The position numbers and the translations under genes were made by a program. This document shows, one piece after another, positions 3,516 through 11,184 of a stretch of DNA of 64,000 nt. Numbering within the stretch: position 1 is the stretch's first letter; every line of letters begins with the position of its first letter. This DNA is from Oligoflexia bacterium. GTDB taxonomy: Bacteria; Bdellovibrionota; UBA1018; CAIPTA01. The stretch lies in contig JAMLID010000007.1 in the NCBI GenBank assembly GCA_023954355.1, forward strand, positions 48,582 through 112,581, given 5' to 3'. Below the pieces are notes generated by a model, which was not told where the DNA came from, made no database searches, and was given only the letters and a program-made list of their open reading frames with translations.

Positions 3516-5582
3516 TTATCCCCTCTCTTTTGCATCTCCACGAGCAAAAATCGAAGCAACATAATTTAAGATATCTGTGGCAGAAATATCGTCATAGCCA
3601 AAATCACGAATCAATCGAGTTTTAACTACATCGATTTTTTCCTGCATATTTTTATCAACAACATTAGAAACCAAGCTAGACAGCTTAATTGAATCTTTTT
3701 GATCTTCAAAAAGTTTCAACTCTAATGCTCTATGTAAACGCTCGTTTGTTTTATAATCAAACTGCTTACCTTCGATGGCTAAAGCACCTATATAGTTCAT
3801 GATCTCTCTTCTAAAATCATCTTTTCTTGATTCTGGAATTTCGATTTTCTCTTCTATAGTTCTCATCAATCGTTCATCTGGCTGTTCTAGTTGTCCCGTA
3901 TATCGGTTGCGTACCTTTTCTTTCTGCGTATAGGCTTTGATATTATCAATATAATTACCGCAAAGATTAGAAATCGCAGACTCATCAGCTGAGATGGCTC
4001 TTTGCACCTCATTCTTGATAATATCTTCGTATTCTTGTTTTACCGCAGAAAGAAGCTCTCTATATTCTCTTCTCTTTTCTTCACTAGAAATTAAAGTGTG
4101 GTGTCGTAAACCCGATTCAAGCTCATTAAATAGCATGAACGGATTAATACAACCCAGATGACCATACTTTACTAAAGTATTAGAAATTTTATCCTGAATA
4201 TAACGTGGACTGACCCCTTCTAATCCCTCGCGTATCGCCTCTTTTCTCAGCTCTTTTACGTTATCTTCGGTATATCCCGATAGGGTCTTCCCATTATAAA
4301 GCTTTAATTTTTGCATAAGTGATAGGTCACTTTTCTTAGGCGCTTCTAGTCTTGTTAAAATCGCCCACATAGCGGCCATCTCAATGGTATGAGGAGCAAT
4401 AAAAACTCCCTGCACCTTACCCTTACCGAAATCTTTTTCGTAGATCTTAATCTCTTCATGAAGCTTTGTAATATAGGGAATGTCAATTTTCACCGTACGA
4501 TCCCTGAGCGCTTCCATAAATTCGTTATTTTGCAATTTACGAAACTCGGGTTCGTTCGTATGCCCAACAATCACTTCATCGATATGCGTTTGCGCAAACT
4601 TCTTTGGCTTAACCACGTGCTCTTGCGAGGCACCTAGCAAATCGTACAAGAAAGCCACGTCTAGTTTTAATACCTCTACAAATTCTATAAGTCCGCGGTT
4701 AGCTACTTGAAACTCACCATCAAAATTAAAAGCTCTTGGGTCAGAGTCTGAACCAAATTCTGCAATTTTTCGGTAATTGATATCACCAGTAAGCTCTGTA
4801 GAGTCTTGGTTTTTTTCGTCCTTGGGTTGAAAAGTACCAATACCGATACGATCTTTTTCTGATAGTAAAAATCTAAACACACGAACGTGCTCTAGAACCT
4901 TTGACCAATCTCCTTTGTAGCGAGACATCAGCTCACGATAGATCATTCTCATAGGAGGCGAGAGCTCTCCTTTAATTTTCATTTTATAATTTCCATCTCC
5001 TGATTTATTTAATTCGTCTTCAAACCCTCTACGCGCACTTTCAGGAATCAATAAAAGTGGATCTTCATTCATGGGTGAGCGCATTTCACCAGACTGACCG
5101 ACGAGCCCGTATTTGGGATCGTCAACAAACTTAAATGTATATAGCGCTCCCTCACTGGTGTGCGAATATCTCTCAATGCCCTTTTTTAGCAACCTAGCAA
5201 TCGTCGACTTTGCTGACCCTACTGGACCATGCAGCAAGAGAACTCTTTTTTCTGTTCCATAACCCAGGGCTGCTGATCGCAAAAAATTCACTAACTTCAT
5301 TAAATGAACATCTAGACCGAAAACAGCATCTTTACCTTGATCGATTGGGTCTTCAAAAAATTTATAATGCGTAACCTCTTTCTTGTATTCCATGAACTGC
5401 GTTGAGCCAAAGCTCATGATCATGTCATACATTCTTTGAAACGCATTTCTTGTGAGATTCGGATTTCCCTTAACTAAATCTAGATATTCCGAAAAGTCTC
5501 CCTCCCAATGAAGCTCTTGGTAACTCTTGGGACTGTGCAAGCCAGCAATTAATCCTACTAAATCTTTATTTGATCCACTCAT
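3516..5582 (-). CDS. prkA: PrkA family serine protein kinase / AAA+ ATPase
   Basis: This 688-residue protein has an N-terminal AAA+ module with Walker A GPVGSAKS at residues 119-126 and a C-terminal PrkA domain distantly similar to eukaryotic kinases. The family (YeaG in E. coli, PrkA in Bacillus) is associated with stress and starvation; both kinase and protease-like activities have been reported for members. It is the first gene of the operon with a secreted protein, yeaH and spoVR. It faces a PP2C phosphatase gene across about 120 bases, so a kinase/phosphatase pair under a shared intergenic region is plausible. Confidence 0.93.
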
Positions 5583-5650
5583 AGATTCCCCTCTCCTTGG
5601 GCTTGAAAGGATTGCCCTTTCTTATTTTTATTATCCGATTGCTAACCCAC

Positions 5651-5674
5651 GAAGTCAAAGCCTTAGTTGACTTC
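5651..5674. promoter_or_regulatory. perfect 8-bp inverted repeat between prkA and the PP2C gene
   Basis: GAAGTCAA and TTGACTTC are exact reverse complements separated by 8 bases. They are flanked by a weaker outer pair, GCTAAC at 5641-5646 and GTTAGC at 5687-5692. The site lies in the divergent region between prkA (minus) and the phosphatase gene (plus). A dimeric repressor or activator site, or a hairpin in the phosphatase leader, would both fit; which one cannot be decided from sequence. Confidence 0.4.
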
Positions 5675-5704
5675 TTTGGCCCCTTTGTTAGCCTATTGAT
5701 ATCT

Positions 5705-6451
5705 ATGAAGATTGTAAGCTCTGGAATCACCGATATTGGCCGAAAACGTAAGGTAAATCAGGATTCCTTTCTAATGGAACCCGAAAATAACCTATTTGTG
5801 GTCGCCGACGGCATGGGAGGGCACGCTGGAGGCGAAACCGCCTCACGCTTAACGGTAGAAACTGTAGTTAAGTCTATATTAACTGATAAATCTACCATGC
5901 TATCTGCAGAGCCCAGCGACTTAGTTATGGGTGCTATTCATAGAGCAAATACTGCCGTTTTCAGTACTGCTGAAAAAAACAAAAGCCTCTCGGGCATGGG
6001 AACCACAGTAGTAACAATGTATTTACAGCAAGGAAAACTCTATGTCGGCCACGTAGGAGACAGTAGAGTCTATATGGCTAAAAAAAATCAAATCTGGCAA
6101 CTCACCAAAGACCACTCTCTAGTCAATGAAAAACTAAAAGCCGGTGTCATTACGCGCGAACAAATGAAAAGAGATAAGTCACGAAACGTAATTACCCGCT
6201 CTGTAGGATTTGAAAGCTCTGTTTTGGTAGATATTTACCAAAAAGAAGTAGGCCCTGGTGAGATTTATCTTGCCTGCTCTGATGGGCTTTCGGGAATGGT
6301 TGAAGATGATGAGATGCTAGCAATCTTAAATGAATTAGCCTGGGGAACAGATGATCTAAAACCCTTAGTGCAAACAATGATTGATCGTGCAAATAAAAAT
6401 GGAGGCGACGACAATGTTACTTGCGTTGTCGCAAGAGTAGATACGAATTAG
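5705..6451 (+). CDS. PP2C-type Ser/Thr protein phosphatase (Stp-like)
   Basis: All metal-binding motifs of bacterial PP2C phosphatases are visible: RKVNQDSF near the start, VVADGMGGHAGGE, GTTVV, HVGDSRVY, ACSDGLSGMV and GGDDNVT at the end. These hold two Mn/Mg ions that hydrolyse phospho-Ser/Thr. The open frame extends upstream to 5597, but I chose the ATG at 5705 because family members begin just before the VNQDS motif and the extension covers an inverted repeat. The product is 248 residues, the usual length. It is divergent from prkA, suggesting it may reverse PrkA or other Hanks-type kinase phosphorylation. Its end overlaps the cheD remnant by 4 bases. Confidence 0.93.
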   Translation: MKIVSSGITDIGRKRKVNQDSFLMEPENNLFVVADGMGGHAGGETASRLTVETVVKSILTDKSTMLSAEPSDLVMGAIHRANTAVFSTAEKNKSLSGMGTTVVTMYLQQGKLYVGHVGDSRVYMAKKNQIWQLTKDHSLVNEKLKAGVITREQMKRDKSRNVITRSVGFESSVLVDIYQKEVGPGEIYLACSDGLSGMVEDDEMLAILNELAWGTDDLKPLVQTMIDRANKNGGDDNVTCVVARVDTN

Positions 6452-7105: not shown

Positions 7106-7813
7106 ATGAATCAGGTAGAAAAACCCCAAGTTTGGATATTAGACAATAACAAAAATACATCTCACACTTATCAGCAGGCTCTAGATGATTCGTTCGATTT
7201 TAAGGAGTTCTCTAACATAAACGATTTTAGAGAATATTATTTAAATACTCTTCGTTCTAATAAATCAAGGATTCCTGACTTTATCATCTCAGAGCTCTAC
7301 CTAGATGATGGATGCATGATTGACCTATTCCGTGATCCCAATTTTCCCAAAAACACTCACTCTCAATTTTTTATTGTGTCTCAAGAAAAAGATCCTTCTA
7401 TTATTGAAAATTGCTTAAAGTTCGGTGCCTCAGATTTTTTCGCTAAGCCCGTAGCCCTACCGGTTCTACAGGCAAAATTAAATTTTGCACTTCAAGAAAA
7501 AATAAAACTCGAAAAACAAGACGTCCCCGTGCTTAAAGCCAATACTCTTACTTTTTATAAAAATGATTCTTTTGTAACAACACTCACACCTAAAGAGATT
7601 CGTATATTTTCAATACTTCATGAGGCTAAAGGCGATACAGTTACTCGAGATCAAATCGTAAGTACGGTTTGGAACAATAAGAAAACATGTAACAAAAGCT
7701 TTGATGTTCATCTTTTTAACTTACGAAAAAAATTATGGGCACTAGATATAGAAGTAGATTTTGTACCCCCAAACTCCTACCGTTTAGAAAAAGGCTGCGC
7801 CCTAATTATTTAA
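7106..7813 (+). CDS. atypical OmpR/PhoB-type response regulator
   Basis: This 235-residue protein has an N-terminal receiver-like fold and a C-terminal winged helix (TLTPKEIRIFSILHEAKGDTVTRDQIVSTVW, followed by a DVHLFNLRKKL recognition helix). The receiver keeps the Lys-Pro switch (FFAKP). The aspartate normally phosphorylated is replaced by glutamate: IISELYLDD places E63 at that position. The acidic pair is also reduced to D13-N14. Such receivers are often phosphorylation-independent. No histidine kinase is adjacent. It precedes the GNAT-HDO-desaturase operon in the same direction and probably controls it, since both promoters carry a related sequence element. Confidence 0.8.
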   Translation: MNQVEKPQVWILDNNKNTSHTYQQALDDSFDFKEFSNINDFREYYLNTLRSNKSRIPDFIISELYLDDGCMIDLFRDPNFPKNTHSQFFIVSQEKDPSIIENCLKFGASDFFAKPVALPVLQAKLNFALQEKIKLEKQDVPVLKANTLTFYKNDSFVTTLTPKEIRIFSILHEAKGDTVTRDQIVSTVWNNKKTCNKSFDVHLFNLRKKLWALDIEVDFVPPNSYRLEKGCALII

Positions 7814-7912: not shown

Positions 7913-8623
7913 ATGTCGGTGAATCAAGAGTTAATAAAAAATATTCAATGCACTATCTTACCAGGAAAATACAAACTCAATCAAAAAATCCCAGAAATAT
8001 ACAATAAAATGTATTTATACTGGAAAAACACCTGGTCGGATTTTTTTGAAAAATCAGGTAGCCCCAAAGGATCCCTAAACATAGAAAATTTTCATCGGCA
8101 TGATTTTTTGATCGTGCTTCATACCAAAGACGAACATCAAATTGCGGGTTCTTTGCTTTCTACTTCATTTCCACTTAAAGCGCTAAGTACATATGATCAC
8201 CCATGCGTTAGTCTTTTTCCATCATCAATCACAACCACGCTAAAGGAGATGTCAAAAGGCTTCTGCATTACTGCAGAATATTTATCAGTCCATCCAGAAT
8301 TCAGAAAATCATTAATAGGAGTTTCACTCGCTGATATACTGGTAGGTTTACAAATGCAGTTATTCGAAGATATTCAGGCAGATATTTCGTTAGCAACTAC
8401 TGTACGGAAAGCAAAGGTCGATGAAATAGGCGCAAGCTATGGCTATAAACCGCTAGGCTCTTATGAAAAATGTGGAGTCGATTGCATTATGATGGTCAAT
8501 ACAAAAGAAACGAATAAAAGACATAAAGATCCCTTAGTTGCAAATCTAGTTGATCTTCTATGGAAAAATAAAATAGACGAAACACATTCACTTCAAAAAA
8601 CAATAACAAGCATAGCAGCCTAG
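7913..8623 (+). CDS. GNAT-fold acyltransferase-like protein, possibly N-acyl amino acid synthase-like
   Basis: The 236-residue protein resembles the GNAT fold of FeeM-type N-acyl amino acid synthases and autoinducer synthases. A core of strands carries HRHDFLIVLHTKDEHQIAGSLL (shown in part, residues about 61-82), then ITAEYLSVHPEFRK (about 119-132) followed by a long helix and a GYKPLGSYEKCG segment typical of GNAT C-termini. I am confident only of the fold class; the acyl donor and acceptor are unknown. A strong AAAGAGGT ribosome site precedes the ATG. It is followed at 15-base spacing by a diiron-oxidase-like gene and a fatty-acid desaturase gene, which argues for an acyl-chain substrate. 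Confidence 0.6.
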   Translation: MSVNQELIKNIQCTILPGKYKLNQKIPEIYNKMYLYWKNTWSDFFEKSGSPKGSLNIENFHRHDFLIVLHTKDEHQIAGSLLSTSFPLKALSTYDHPCVSLFPSSITTTLKEMSKGFCITAEYLSVHPEFRKSLIGVSLADILVGLQMQLFEDIQADISLATTVRKAKVDEIGASYGYKPLGSYEKCGVDCIMMVNTKETNKRHKDPLVANLVDLLWKNKIDETHSLQKTITSIAA

Positions 8624-8638
8624 AAGAGAGGTAGTACC

Positions 8639-9280
8639 ATGACAAAAGACGATGTTAAAAAAGTGTTCAAACAAACGCACGAAAGAATGAATAAAGTAGC
8701 ACAAGAGTTTCCCTGGGAAAATAAAGAAGCTTACTTATCGTGGCTAGCTCAAACAATGGAATATGTAACTTATGGTACACGTATTTTAGCCTTAACGGCC
8801 GGAACTTTTCCTCTAGATCAAACTCCCCTAACTGCGCGATTTATTCAGCATGCTACAGAAGAAAAAGGCCACGAAAAACTTCTTATAAATGATGCAAAAG
8901 CCCTAGGCATGAATATTGAAAAAATTGCCATCTTACCTGAAGCAGAAGCTTTTCATAAAAGCGTTTATTATTGGATCTACCAACATAGACCCGCTGTAAT
9001 TATGGGTTGGATTTTATTTTTAGAAGGCTTTGCTATAATCAGTGGACCGGGGATTCACAAACGAGTCGAAGCTGCCTACGGAAAAAAACCAACGAGCTTT
9101 GCAAGAGTACATACAAACGAAGACCCTGATCATGTAGATAAAGCGATGGATATTCTAGATTATTTTTCAGCCTATGAGCTCAAAGATATTATTCATGGCT
9201 TAGAGCTTTACTCGTCACTCTATACAAATATTTTAAAGGCTGTACCTGCTAATTTAAAAAAGCAGTCAGTCGCTGCATAA
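8639..9280 (+). CDS. heme-oxygenase-like diiron/iron oxidase (HDO, iron-containing redox enzyme family)
   Basis: This 213-residue all-helical protein shows the ligand pattern of heme-oxygenase-like iron oxidases: E74/E75 with H78 in ATEEKGH, E129 in ILFLEGF, and H158, D162 and H165 in VHTNEDPDHVDKAM. This family includes UndA (fatty acid to terminal alkene), BesC and other O2-dependent enzymes that desaturate, cleave or hydroxylate amines and acids. With a GNAT-fold protein upstream and a fatty-acid desaturase 14 bases downstream, an acyl or acyl-amine substrate is likely. The ribosome site GAGAGGT precedes the ATG. A plain TenA thiaminase or heme oxygenase is less likely, given the DPDHV block. 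Confidence 0.75.
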   Translation: MTKDDVKKVFKQTHERMNKVAQEFPWENKEAYLSWLAQTMEYVTYGTRILALTAGTFPLDQTPLTARFIQHATEEKGHEKLLINDAKALGMNIEKIAILPEAEAFHKSVYYWIYQHRPAVIMGWILFLEGFAIISGPGIHKRVEAAYGKKPTSFARVHTNEDPDHVDKAMDILDYFSAYELKDIIHGLELYSSLYTNILKAVPANLKKQSVAA

Positions 9281-9294
9281 CTATAGGGATTCCT

Positions 9295-10158
9295 GTGGAT
9301 CAAAATATTTTTCAATTTTCTAAACCTTCTTTTTTGAAATTTGTTCCCTACTTAGTTTTAGACTGGATAGGGATTTCTGCAGGCATTTTACTTTTTTACC
9401 ACCAAAAGAATGTTATTGGTTTTTTCTTAGCCTCAATCATTATTGGGCATTTTCAACACTCACTTGCTATTTTAGGGCACGAGGCCGTACATTTCAGAAT
9501 TTCTAAAAATCGAACCTTAAATGAGTGGATTGGCAGAATTTTTTGTTTTTTCCCTGTAACAATCACGGTTAGCACCTACAGGGATTTTCATTTTCCGCAC
9601 CATAAAAGCCCAAATGGCATCATTGATCCAGAAATTCCCATACGTAAAGCCATGGGTAAAAACTGGGTAGCTCCATTCAGTATTACTAGAGGCATAAGGC
9701 TTTGGACGTTAAGTTTTATAGGCTTTTCATTACGTGAATTGGCTATATTTAGCTTTATGCTACCTAGTGGGTCAAAAAAAGAAAAAATTCTTTTAACAAC
9801 TTATTGGTCGGTCATTGGATATTGTGCTTATAGGTTTCAGGCTGCCAGCTACCTAGGATTGTGGTTTTATGCTATCGCCACTACTTACTTTTCAAAACTA
9901 AGGGTCCAAGCGTGGTACGAACACAGCCTCGATACTGAGTATGCAAACAGATACCAGCTTCCTAATACTTTCTATCGACTCATATTTCCACATAATATTT
10001 GGGTGCATTATGAACACCATAAATATCCCACTGTGCCTTTTTACCATTTAGAAAACGTACGCACATTAGATGAGAATGAAAAGATTTATACCTTTAAGGA
10101 AATGAATAATAAAATAAGAAATAACTTAAATGCATCTCAAGCAACAAAAGCTGCTTGA
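9295..10158 (+). CDS. membrane-bound fatty acid desaturase
   Basis: The 287-residue protein contains the three histidine boxes of membrane diiron desaturases: H62-E-A-V-H66, H99-F-P-H102-H103, and H238-Y-E-H241-H242. Hydrophobic segments at about 20-65, 82-92 and 125-200 would place it in the inner membrane. The start is a GTG with a TAGGGA ribosome site. The enzyme uses O2 and reduced electron carriers to introduce a double bond or hydroxyl into an acyl chain. It is the last gene of the GNAT-HDO-desaturase operon, so it may tailor the same product instead of serving bulk membrane lipids. It ends 2 bases from a convergent gene. Confidence 0.88.
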   Translation: MDQNIFQFSKPSFLKFVPYLVLDWIGISAGILLFYHQKNVIGFFLASIIIGHFQHSLAILGHEAVHFRISKNRTLNEWIGRIFCFFPVTITVSTYRDFHFPHHKSPNGIIDPEIPIRKAMGKNWVAPFSITRGIRLWTLSFIGFSLRELAIFSFMLPSGSKKEKILLTTYWSVIGYCAYRFQAASYLGLWFYAIATTYFSKLRVQAWYEHSLDTEYANRYQLPNTFYRLIFPHNIWVHYEHHKYPTVPFYHLENVRTLDENEKIYTFKEMNNKIRNNLNASQATKAA

Positions 10159-10160
10159 TC

Positions 10161-10895
10161 TCATTCGGCTAAATATAAATTTCTCTCTCTACTAGCCGTA
10201 GGAATACTAATCTCTTTCTGACCAATAATGTCTGCAGAAGTAACCACCATCCATGCCTTAGGCGTGCCACGAACTTTATCTTTTAATATACACAACAAAT
10301 CATACTTAACATCCAAAACAAGCCTAGAACTAGAGCTAGTTTCTTCAAGCTTATGTCTTGGAATGTCAGGGCAGTACATATCTCCAGAAATTTGTCCCGT
10401 TAACAAAGCGTTTACTTTTTTAAAACAAAGCTCATTTACGCTTTCATCTCTTCTATACCTCTTATACCACTCTAAACAGTGAACCTCTTCAAGAGTGTAT
10501 GAGCAGTACTTCATAAACTGAAAATTCCGCCAAATTTGGTGCCCTTCAAAATCATAAATCTCAATAAGTGAACTAGACTTTATATGGCTAAATAAATTAC
10601 TCGGTGGAGTTAGTTCCATTGTCACTAATGCGTGCCAAGCTGATTTATCACTACTATCAACACGCTCACCAAAGGACTCTGCTTCTTCTAAAGAATCCAA
10701 AAAGACACGTAAACGAAGGAGAACTTCTTTTTGCACACTTTCTGAGAGCGCACTAAATAAAGGTAGGTCTCTGGACCTATAACCAGATATTTGCAAACCA
10801 TAAGAACGGTAAATTTCTTTGATCCGATCAGCGGACTCACAAAATAAATTTCGTCTCTTAGTTAATGCATCGTCATCTTTAAGATAAAGTGACAT
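10161..10895 (-). CDS. hypothetical protein with PAS-like segment
   Basis: A frame opens with a TTG at 10910, but I prefer the ATG at 10895, which is directly preceded by an 8-G run. The product is 244 residues. The central part (SSLIEIYDFEGHQIWRNFQFMKYCSYTLEEV, given in outline at about 115-145) reads like a PAS sensory fold in which a target residue and F-helix are recognisable, but I cannot assign it firmly. It has no signal peptide or membrane segment. It follows the small XRE regulator gene at a spacing of 25 bases and is probably co-transcribed with it. It is convergent with the desaturase gene. Confidence 0.6.
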   Translation of the reverse strand: MSLYLKDDDALTKRRNLFCESADRIKEIYRSYGLQISGYRSRDLPLFSALSESVQKEVLLRLRVFLDSLEEAESFGERVDSSDKSAWHALVTMELTPPSNLFSHIKSSSLIEIYDFEGHQIWRNFQFMKYCSYTLEEVHCLEWYKRYRRDESVNELCFKKVNALLTGQISGDMYCPDIPRHKLEETSSSSRLVLDVKYDLLCILKDKVRGTPKAWMVVTSADIIGQKEISIPTASRERNLYLAE

Positions 10896-10920
10896 TCCCC
10901 CCCCAAACAAAGAACAATCC

Positions 10921-11184
10921 CTATTGCTCTAACACCTCTACACCATCGACCATCTTCAAAATAAACTTCGGATCAATATTTAAGCAATTAGACAACGCAT
11001 ATAATTGATTAAGTGGAGGACTCATTCTTCCCCCCTCTATTGTACGCAACTCATCAACACTTACACCCAAATAGCGTGCTACATCATCTTCACAAAACCC
11101 GAGTTGCTCTCTTTTACTTTTAACAAAGCTTCCAAACTGCTCTGCTAGACCGATTTGCTCTTCTAACTTCTTATTAATTGACAT
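10921..11184 (-). CDS. XRE-family helix-turn-helix regulator
   Basis: The 87-residue protein is essentially one Cro/C1-type HTH domain. The VKSKREQLGFCEDDVARYLG segment is helices 1 to 2, followed by VSVDELRTIEGGRMSPPLNQL, where the recognition helix lies, and by YALSNCLNIDPKFIL. The length is typical of stand-alone regulators. It probably controls itself and the PAS-like protein gene immediately downstream. No phage genes are nearby, so it need not be a prophage repressor. Confidence 0.85.
   Translation of the reverse strand: MSINKKLEEQIGLAEQFGSFVKSKREQLGFCEDDVARYLGVSVDELRTIEGGRMSPPLNQLYALSNCLNIDPKFILKMVDGVEVLEQ

Follow-up and report, generated by a model that had tools for sequence, protein, structure and literature searches.

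FeeM and the LuxI-type AHL synthases RpaI, BjaI and MesI adopt a GNAT fold, and LuxI-type systems pair with LuxR. The locus described here encodes a protein of the same fold and of similar length, with about 10% identity to these enzymes. Its surroundings are different, since the GNAT gene adjoins genes for a PAS-fold and an XRE protein instead, and its operon carries tailoring oxidases, unlike FeeM and the LuxI-type synthases. Two further systems resemble the locus at the ends of its proteins. According to the consulted part of PMC7142297, sigma-AntA of Streptomyces is a ClpXP substrate whose conserved C-terminal Ala-Ala governs a natural-product pathway by proteolysis. There, a single regulator is tagged; here the tail sits on the enzymes and is missing from the PAS and XRE proteins. 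Aldehyde decarbonylases are enzymes of fatty-chain metabolism whose conserved C-terminus likewise ends in Ala-Ala; this degron, RMSAYGLAAA, is read by ClpAP and Lon and not clearly by ClpX (PMC7325246, consulted in part). However, it belongs to a single enzyme family, lacks a basic pair at -3/-4 and, in the consulted sections of PMC7325246, is not shared across an operon.

The operon and its enzymes

The window, i.e., the whole stretch of 64,000 nucleotides that was analyzed, contains three plus-strand genes separated by 15 bases (GNAT-HDO) and 14 bases (HDO-desaturase), in agreement with the spacing given in a preliminary description of this DNA. The first gene (7913..8623) encodes a GNAT-fold acyltransferase of 236 aa from a family without a Pfam model. 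It is followed by a heme-oxygenase-like dimetal oxidase (HDO; PF14518, 213 aa, 8639..9280) and by a membrane fatty-acid desaturase/hydroxylase family protein (PF00487, 287 aa, GTG start, 9295..10158). On the minus strand, convergent with the desaturase gene, lies the gene of a 249-aa PAS-fold protein without a Pfam model (10161..10910), and upstream of it on the same strand that of an 87-aa XRE/Cro-type HTH protein (10921..11184). An OmpR-type winged-helix protein, whose receiver domain stays below the Pfam cut-off, is encoded on the plus strand 99 bases upstream of the GNAT gene (7106..7813); relatives of it (206-241 aa) were found in 8 of the 105 other loci examined.

Sequence comparison of the GNAT protein with Pfam, NCBIfam and PDB yielded no significant match. 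The AHL-synthase and FeeM models of Pfam did not match the window protein, whose sole Pfam match was DUF3432 (E 0.18), nor were they found for 70 GNAT relatives (eight database matches and, from the loci, 62 out of 78 GNATs of nearly full length) among the 25 of 36 families listed at E up to 1. The Pfam GNAT model itself was touched by two of these 70 relatives (best E 0.051). A search of 5.8 billion proteins returned ten matches, query included, and we therefore took the breadth of the family from genome profile searches. Where the sequence searches failed, the predicted structure (pLDDT 89) gave the superfamily and revealed a GNAT fold. The first seven Foldseek matches were FeeM, RpaI, the NcdE acyltransferase domain, BjaI and MesI, with the top matches (FeeM/RpaI) at E ~2e-6. 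The FeeM-like character proposed in the preliminary description thus stands with respect to Foldseek, but in a second structure alignment (VIA-align) FeeM and the AHL synthases tie with ordinary N-acetyltransferases, and this tie leaves some room for a plain acetyltransferase. Among the rows listed, AHL synthases span the longest stretch of the model, 194-203 residues versus 136-175.

The two oxidase assignments proposed earlier from the sequence passed their Pfam checks, the HDO scoring 42.4 bits against PF14518 (cut-off 28.9) and the desaturase 97.6 bits against PF00487 (cut-off 29.7). The HDO residues singled out before (E74, E75, H78, E129, H158, D162, and H165) are invariant in 52/52 aligned HDOs. 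They include three histidines and three carboxylates (E75, H78, E129, H158, D162, and H165), the putative metal ligands. In the PDB, the single sequence match below 0.001 was 3dde, named as of unknown function. The PF14518 match and the invariant 3H-plus-carboxylate pattern are common to the window HDO and the superfamily of UndA, BesC, SznF and AetD, and the ligand set is of the 3H/3C type (PMC13108848, a review consulted in part). Family membership and invariant metal ligands predict an O2-dependent dimetal oxidase. All three His boxes of the desaturase could be located as previously stated (H62xxxH66, H99xxH102H103, and H238xxH241H242). Across 23 aligned desaturases H62, H66, H99, H102, H103 and H238 are invariant, and H241/H242 are nearly so, row P0083 ending short there.

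A gene module across Bdellovibrionota

The trio forms the enzyme half of a gene module that comprises further genes and is found across Bdellovibrionota. Among 368 genomes, profiles matched the GNAT in 100, the PAS protein in 123 and the HDO in 152. GNAT and PAS protein co-occur in 89 genomes (Fisher 7e-44, kinship ignored) and GNAT and HDO in 88 (Fisher 6e-30, kinship ignored); this table was compiled by hand from the genome lists of the profile matches, and the loci behind the PAS profile come from the same genomes. Within 4 kb of the GNAT gene, an HDO and/or desaturase was encoded in 45 of the 51 loci that extend at least 3 kb beyond this gene in each direction, the PAS-fold protein without a Pfam model in 42 and an XRE regulator in 27. 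Conservation of the trio, a check suggested in the preliminary description, was observed in part: GNAT and HDO stand side by side repeatedly across the phylum, but the exact GNAT-HDO-desaturase order is confined to a subset. The desaturase, with profile matches to 13 ORFs in the 86 loci described below, is an optional member. HDO and desaturase partly substitute for each other between loci. In one genome GNAT and HDO are fused into a single ORF of 455 aa. The literature matches listed contain no named pathway with this trio, in line with what had been stated before.

Locus-wide counts refer to a set of 86 loci, which are related to each other and of which several come from one genome. Duplicates (at least the pairs L017/L090, L018/L068, and L019/L096) were kept, as were loci where ORF picking had dropped the GNAT, e.g., L064 and L086. 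L047, L049, L050, L056, L057, L062, L067, L070, L071 and L073 were counted as longer stretches of the same places, and L001-L014 and L020-L046 lie outside the set.

PAS-family ORFs are present in 65/86 loci and the XRE family in 36/86. For the PAS family, comparison by sequence, with Pfam (58 of 70 ORFs) and with PDB gave nothing consistent, and its identity was settled by the predicted fold, a helical N-terminal half followed by a PAS domain at about residues 102-234. Structural neighbors include LOV and NifL PAS domains. The LuxR autoinducer-binding model PF03472 was touched by one of 58 members (E 0.012). Genomes hold up to seven PAS paralogues, and nine genomes encode the PAS protein without a GNAT or HDO match, showing that it is not dedicated to the module. 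The flanking PAS/XRE pair had been overlooked earlier; the PAS protein co-occurs with the GNAT as strongly as the HDO does. A cluster that contains histidine kinases, seen in 23 loci, is probably incidental (Ala-Ala end in 3/37 ORFs).

C-terminal tails of the module enzymes

All three window enzymes end in Ala-Ala, a feature that had escaped the preliminary description. The GNAT ends in TITSIAA (last four codons S-I-A-A, 8609..8620, plus strand), the HDO in KKQSVAA (S-V-A-A, 9266..9277, plus strand) and the desaturase in SQATKAA (T-K-A-A, 10144..10155, plus strand), and the convergent PAS protein lacks such a tail. Considering ORFs of at least 120 aa (XRE at least 70 aa) in the 86 loci, we found Ala-Ala on 81 of the 159 GNAT, HDO and desaturase ORFs (38/81, 36/65, and 7/13, respectively) versus 13/470 other ORFs (Fisher 5e-43, kinship ignored). 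PAS (0/68) and XRE proteins (0/41) never carried it, which speaks against a mark of the whole locus. The length limit excluded one HDO fragment and two PAS-family fragments, one of which, of 108 aa, ends in Ala-Ala (1/70 PAS ORFs with fragments counted). Exact Ala-Ala occurs on only about half of the enzymes. A looser ending of two small residues was present on 129/159 enzymes, 0/68 PAS, 11/41 XRE and 40/470 other ORFs, and adding the published ClpX C-motif-2 to exact Ala-Ala gave 46/81 GNATs, 40/65 HDOs and 8/13 desaturases.

Several other readings of the tail were rejected. Genome composition does not account for it, as Ala-Ala ends 1/412 ORFs sampled from the window's own genome (first 20 kb of 20 of the 79 contigs, plus the window) and 0/349 from the one-contig genome G193. 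A DNA-level element was dismissed because the tails draw on all four Ala codons and on three stop codons, and because the desaturase, encoded last in the window operon, has the tail too; in particular, the use of all four codons indicates that the protein end is what is conserved. Nor is it a general mark of the HDO fold, being absent from the HDO-profile matches in the outgroup loci L006-L014 (0/6).

Conservation is focused on the extreme end. In 52 close relatives of the HDO, pair identity at the last two positions is 0.75 and 0.89, versus at most 0.22 from -15 to -3; in the desaturase (21 of 23 rows) it is 0.90 and 0.73, versus at most 0.27 elsewhere. In the GNAT (9 of 10 rows) position -1 alone stands out (0.78). 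A GNAT row and two desaturase rows were omitted here because their ends were truncated or dissimilar. Lys or Arg occupies -4 in 53% and -3 in 48% of cases. Adjacent enzymes tend to agree in tail status: under the loose pattern, 63 of 80 distinct pairs have the tail on both, 8 on neither and 9 are discordant (p 8e-6).

Operon enzymes of other families also end in Ala-Ala, namely a methyltransferase, two FAD_binding_4 proteins and a DAO-like flavoprotein (4/11 extra operon ORFs versus 9/459 others). Among the 13 other Ala-Ala ORFs is one, from locus L016, that probably represents a divergent GNAT. Neighbors outside the operons with this end (an MCP, a Lon protease, a hexapeptide protein, and kinases) were treated as background. 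A check set comprised 20 loci from genomes with HDO and PAS matches and without a GNAT match, L159 repeating L016. Here the strict motif was less frequent (7/19 HDOs and 5/17 ORFs in the GNAT position, the latter picked by hand from place and size). With filters off in this small set, the GNAT profile scored nine of these 17 ORFs under 1e-5 and 12 under 1e-3.

A candidate degron and a proposed pathway product

According to the published excerpts consulted, ClpX C-motif-1 comprises LAA, NAA, PAA and EAA, and C-motif-2 RRKKAI, RAKKVA, HIKKAS, RVKHPA and HARKVA. The module tails resemble both, ending either in Ala-Ala or in small residues preceded by a basic pair, and the three window tails are of the C-motif-1 type. 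Flexibility of this end was predicted for the GNAT alone, where residues 229-236 have a pLDDT under 50. The window's own genome encodes ClpA, a ClpX that has the GYVG and RKH loops, and a tmRNA whose tag ends in ALAA; SspB was searched for and not found. Judged from these sequences, the tail is likely a pathway-wide degron, and the pathway that it marks likely makes an acyl-amide signal.

We envisage that the GNAT, given its fold, would couple an amine or amino acid to an acyl chain supplied by acyl-ACP or acyl-CoA. The HDO and, where present, the desaturase may then act on this product or on its precursors by oxidation or desaturation, as their families and invariant metal ligands suggest. 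Co-localization and fold point to a PAS protein that might sense the product or a linked cue and, jointly with the XRE protein, act on the enzyme operon. Finally, recognition of the C-terminal tails by ClpX or ClpA would remove all the enzymes at the same time, as the tail pattern suggests. We give even chances to the prediction that, with the module enzymes tail-tagged for ClpXP/ClpAP, the modified acyl-amide signal is made only during fresh enzyme synthesis.

It is possible, albeit doubtful, that the product is a structural or surface lipid (an aminolipid or biosurfactant) and that PAS and XRE proteins only sense redox or the oxygen needed by the oxygenases. FeeM-type products include biosurfactants and aminolipids among the literature matches listed, and the LOV and NifL neighbors of the PAS fold would suit such a sensor. 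However, 42 of the 51 flanked loci encode a PAS protein next to the GNAT, and if the tails make the enzymes short-lived, a switchable product would fit better than a bulk lipid. We consider it unlikely that the tail serves docking or targeting instead of degradation, grouping the pathway enzymes on a scaffold, a membrane site or a carrier protein. The fused GNAT-HDO ORF does suggest that the enzymes act in proximity, the basic residues at -3/-4 could touch lipid or an acidic partner, and the restriction of the tail to enzymes, some tailoring enzymes of other families included, would agree with docking as well. Yet the common ends AA, VA, IA, AS, AG and SA closely match ClpX C-motif-1 and -2 substrates, the organism's own tmRNA tag likewise ends in AA, and none of the 25 largest neighbor families listed resembles a scaffold. 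That the GNAT is an ordinary acetyltransferase in an operon that modifies or detoxifies a small amine is improbable in view of its Foldseek matches, the long coverage by AHL synthases and a partner of the fatty-acid desaturase type.

If the tail is a degron, unrelated enzymes of one pathway would each have gained the same kind of destruction signal. A short C-terminal sequence would then help to predict pathway membership, and further pathway enzymes could be found by their tails. More tentatively, we propose an undescribed signaling system in Bdellovibrionota, including predatory Bdellovibrio. In it, a new GNAT family would make the messenger, an acyl amide, which interchangeable oxidases, desaturases, methyltransferases and flavoenzymes would diversify by lineage; PAS and XRE proteins would read it, and a fold-independent degron barcode would let ClpXP/ClpAP erase the pathway at once. 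Should the pathway indeed make a signal, predatory bacteria would have in it a candidate chemical language; no title among the literature matches listed refers to a Bdellovibrio synthase/receptor pair. In Bdellovibrio sp. HM001, GNAT, HDO and PAS genes occur together with an XRE-like ORF (recognized by eye) on plasmid pBdHM1, where the enzyme tails read NIAA and RLAA.

Gene content and cohesion of the module

The three plus-strand ORFs of the preliminary description were recovered at 7913-8623 (GNAT), 8639-9280 (HDO, heme-oxygenase-like dimetal oxidase) and 9295-10158 (desaturase), with gaps of 15 and 14 bases. In a Pfam check, the middle protein scored above the PF14518 cut-off and the last above the PF00487 cut-off. 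The metal ligands proposed for the HDO are invariant in 52/52 HDO homologues, and the His boxes of the desaturase are kept in a 23-row alignment. The source genome is a 3.15 Mb draft of 79 contigs. Named homologues come from Bdellovibrionota MAGs, Pseudobacteriovorax, Bacteriovorax, Bdellovibrionaceae and Bdellovibrio bacteriovorus strain kdesi, and one remote desaturase homologue from a Planctomycetota MAG. Of the nine other GNAT hits, four (P0002-P0005) sit on contigs of 9629, 6605, 32602 and 2763 bases, and equal sizes recur for HDO and desaturase hits, which suggests that these contigs carry the same trio. Upstream of the trio, the plus strand encodes a winged-helix regulator (7106-7813) whose receiver-domain match is weak, and relatives of this regulator (206-241 aa) were found at eight other loci (L084, L089, L102, L103, L169, L174, L175 and L177). 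Farther upstream, at about 1.5 kb from the trio, a PrkA-type serine kinase (3516-5582, minus strand) and a PP2C-type phosphatase (5597-6451, plus strand) are divergently arranged with a 14-base gap.

The module also includes a PAS protein (10161-10910) and an XRE protein (10921-11184), both on the minus strand. On plasmid pBdHM1 (161 kb, AP029175.1) of Bdellovibrio sp. HM001, an XRE-GNAT-HDO-PAS module lies within 2.4 kb (L179, 84-2483), with profile matches for GNAT (2e-17), HDO (1e-43) and PAS protein (2e-49) and an XRE-like ORF recognised by eye; all of these genes are annotated "hypothetical protein". A 455-aa ORF ending in SAA (L055:817-2184, minus strand) comes from a draft genome whose contamination is 8%; it is matched by both the GNAT and the HDO profile and is a natural single-chain GNAT-HDO version. 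This ORF and the plasmid module link the parts of the module to one another. We also used a check set of 20 genomes selected for HDO and PAS hits without a GNAT hit. An ORF of 178-246 aa, hand-picked by place and size, occupies the GNAT position in 17/20 of these loci; a search restricted to this small set, with the filters switched off, gave GNAT-profile matches for 9/17 under 1e-5 and 12/17 under 1e-3. Genomes G190-G213 (genus g89) hold two to seven PAS-family matches each, usually more than their GNAT matches (one or two).

A shared C-terminal tail

The window enzymes end in TITSIAA (GNAT), KKQSVAA (HDO) and SQATKAA (desaturase). Over 86 module loci, Ala-Ala ends were found in 38/81 GNATs, 36/65 HDOs and 7/13 desaturases, compared with 0/68 PAS-family proteins (1/70 with fragments included), 0/41 XRE proteins and 13/470 other ORFs 120 aa or longer (enzymes versus other ORFs, Fisher 5e-43). 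Among close relatives, the counts are 5/10 GNATs, 42/52 HDOs and 17/23 desaturases. Background was 1/412 ORFs in the own-genome sample plus window, and 0/349 over 400 kb sampled from G193, whose genome is a single contig and whose genus also holds the kdesi-like locus L068. The only other such ORF in the own-genome sample is L021:4496-5404 (minus strand, 302 aa), ending in DSQLAA.

By position, enzyme tails have Ala at -1 (73%) and -2 (63%) and K/R at -3 (48%) and -4 (53%). Within the last 15 residues, conservation peaks at the final two positions in close HDO and desaturase relatives and at the last position alone in GNATs; in HDOs, 16 to 27 residues separate the conserved YxxLY from the C-terminus. 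The tails use each of the four Ala codons, and every stop codon occurs, so it is the protein end that is kept rather than a DNA element. A looser pattern of two small end residues is present in 129/159 enzymes, 0/68 PAS, 11/41 XRE and 40/470 other proteins. Adjacent enzymes of different folds tend to agree in it: among 80 distinct pairs (from 85), 63 have it in both partners, 8 in neither and 9 are discordant (p 8e-6, a value that ignores kinship between loci). The eight loci where GNAT and partner both lack it include L015, L078, L084, L109, L112, L163 and L172, and these seven offer a natural contrast for the tail's role.

Extra operon ORFs end in Ala-Ala in 4/11 cases versus 9/459 other ORFs. 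Inside GNAT operons, such ends occur on a methyltransferase (L099:4196-5119), two FAD_binding_4 proteins (L108:3158-4828 and L130:5725-7326) and a DAO/Trp-halogenase-like flavoprotein (L111:2660-4045), which are likely alternative tailoring enzymes. Two more desaturase-family proteins adjoining check-set modules end in EEAA and EKAA (L174, L176).

Candidate degron and putative product

A review table (PMC9775585) lists LAA, NAA, PAA and EAA as E. coli ClpX C-motif-1, and MuA RRKKAI, YbaQ RAKKVA, PncB HIKKAS, Rsd RVKHPA and PaaA HARKVA as C-motif-2. Module tails including KKAA, KKVA, RKVA and KKAS fall within or next to these tabulated classes. Strict patterns from that table match 46/81 GNATs, 40/65 HDOs and 8/13 desaturases, but 0/68 PAS, 0/41 XRE, 14/470 other, 1/412 own-genome and 1/349 G193 ORFs; the check set gave 7/19 HDOs, 5/17 GNAT-position ORFs, 0/16 PAS and 4/99 other ORFs. 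The terminal Ala-Ala is described as the part of ssrA that matters most for ClpXP (PMC7652416), sigma-AntA is reported as a ClpXP substrate via a C-terminal Ala-Ala kept in 67/71 orthologues (PMC7142297), and aldehyde decarbonylases are reported to have a conserved Ala-Ala-ending degron that ClpAP and Lon recognise (PMC7325246). Genes for ClpX (with GYVG and RKH loops), ClpA and a tmRNA with the tag GNEYALAA are present in the own genome, where SspB was not found. The last eight GNAT residues are flexible by predicted structure. We regard the shared tail as a candidate degron and the enzymes as probably short-lived. Every single module part is of a known kind. Among the matches listed in a literature search of titles and abstract starts, without subscription papers and preprints, none described a degron-like tail on unrelated enzymes of one operon that is absent from its PAS/XRE proteins.

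The gene content, its conservation, the metal ligands and the tail pattern were observed, and the folds are predictions. In the proposed scheme, the GNAT would transfer an acyl group, HDO and desaturase would oxidise, the PAS protein together with the XRE protein would sense, and Clp proteases would remove the enzymes jointly. The module may make a surface lipid or another natural product. A regulated small-molecule signal fits better than a bulk lipid, given the combination of a synthase-like GNAT, tailoring enzymes that vary, a sensor/regulator pair next to them and enzymes that are probably short-lived.
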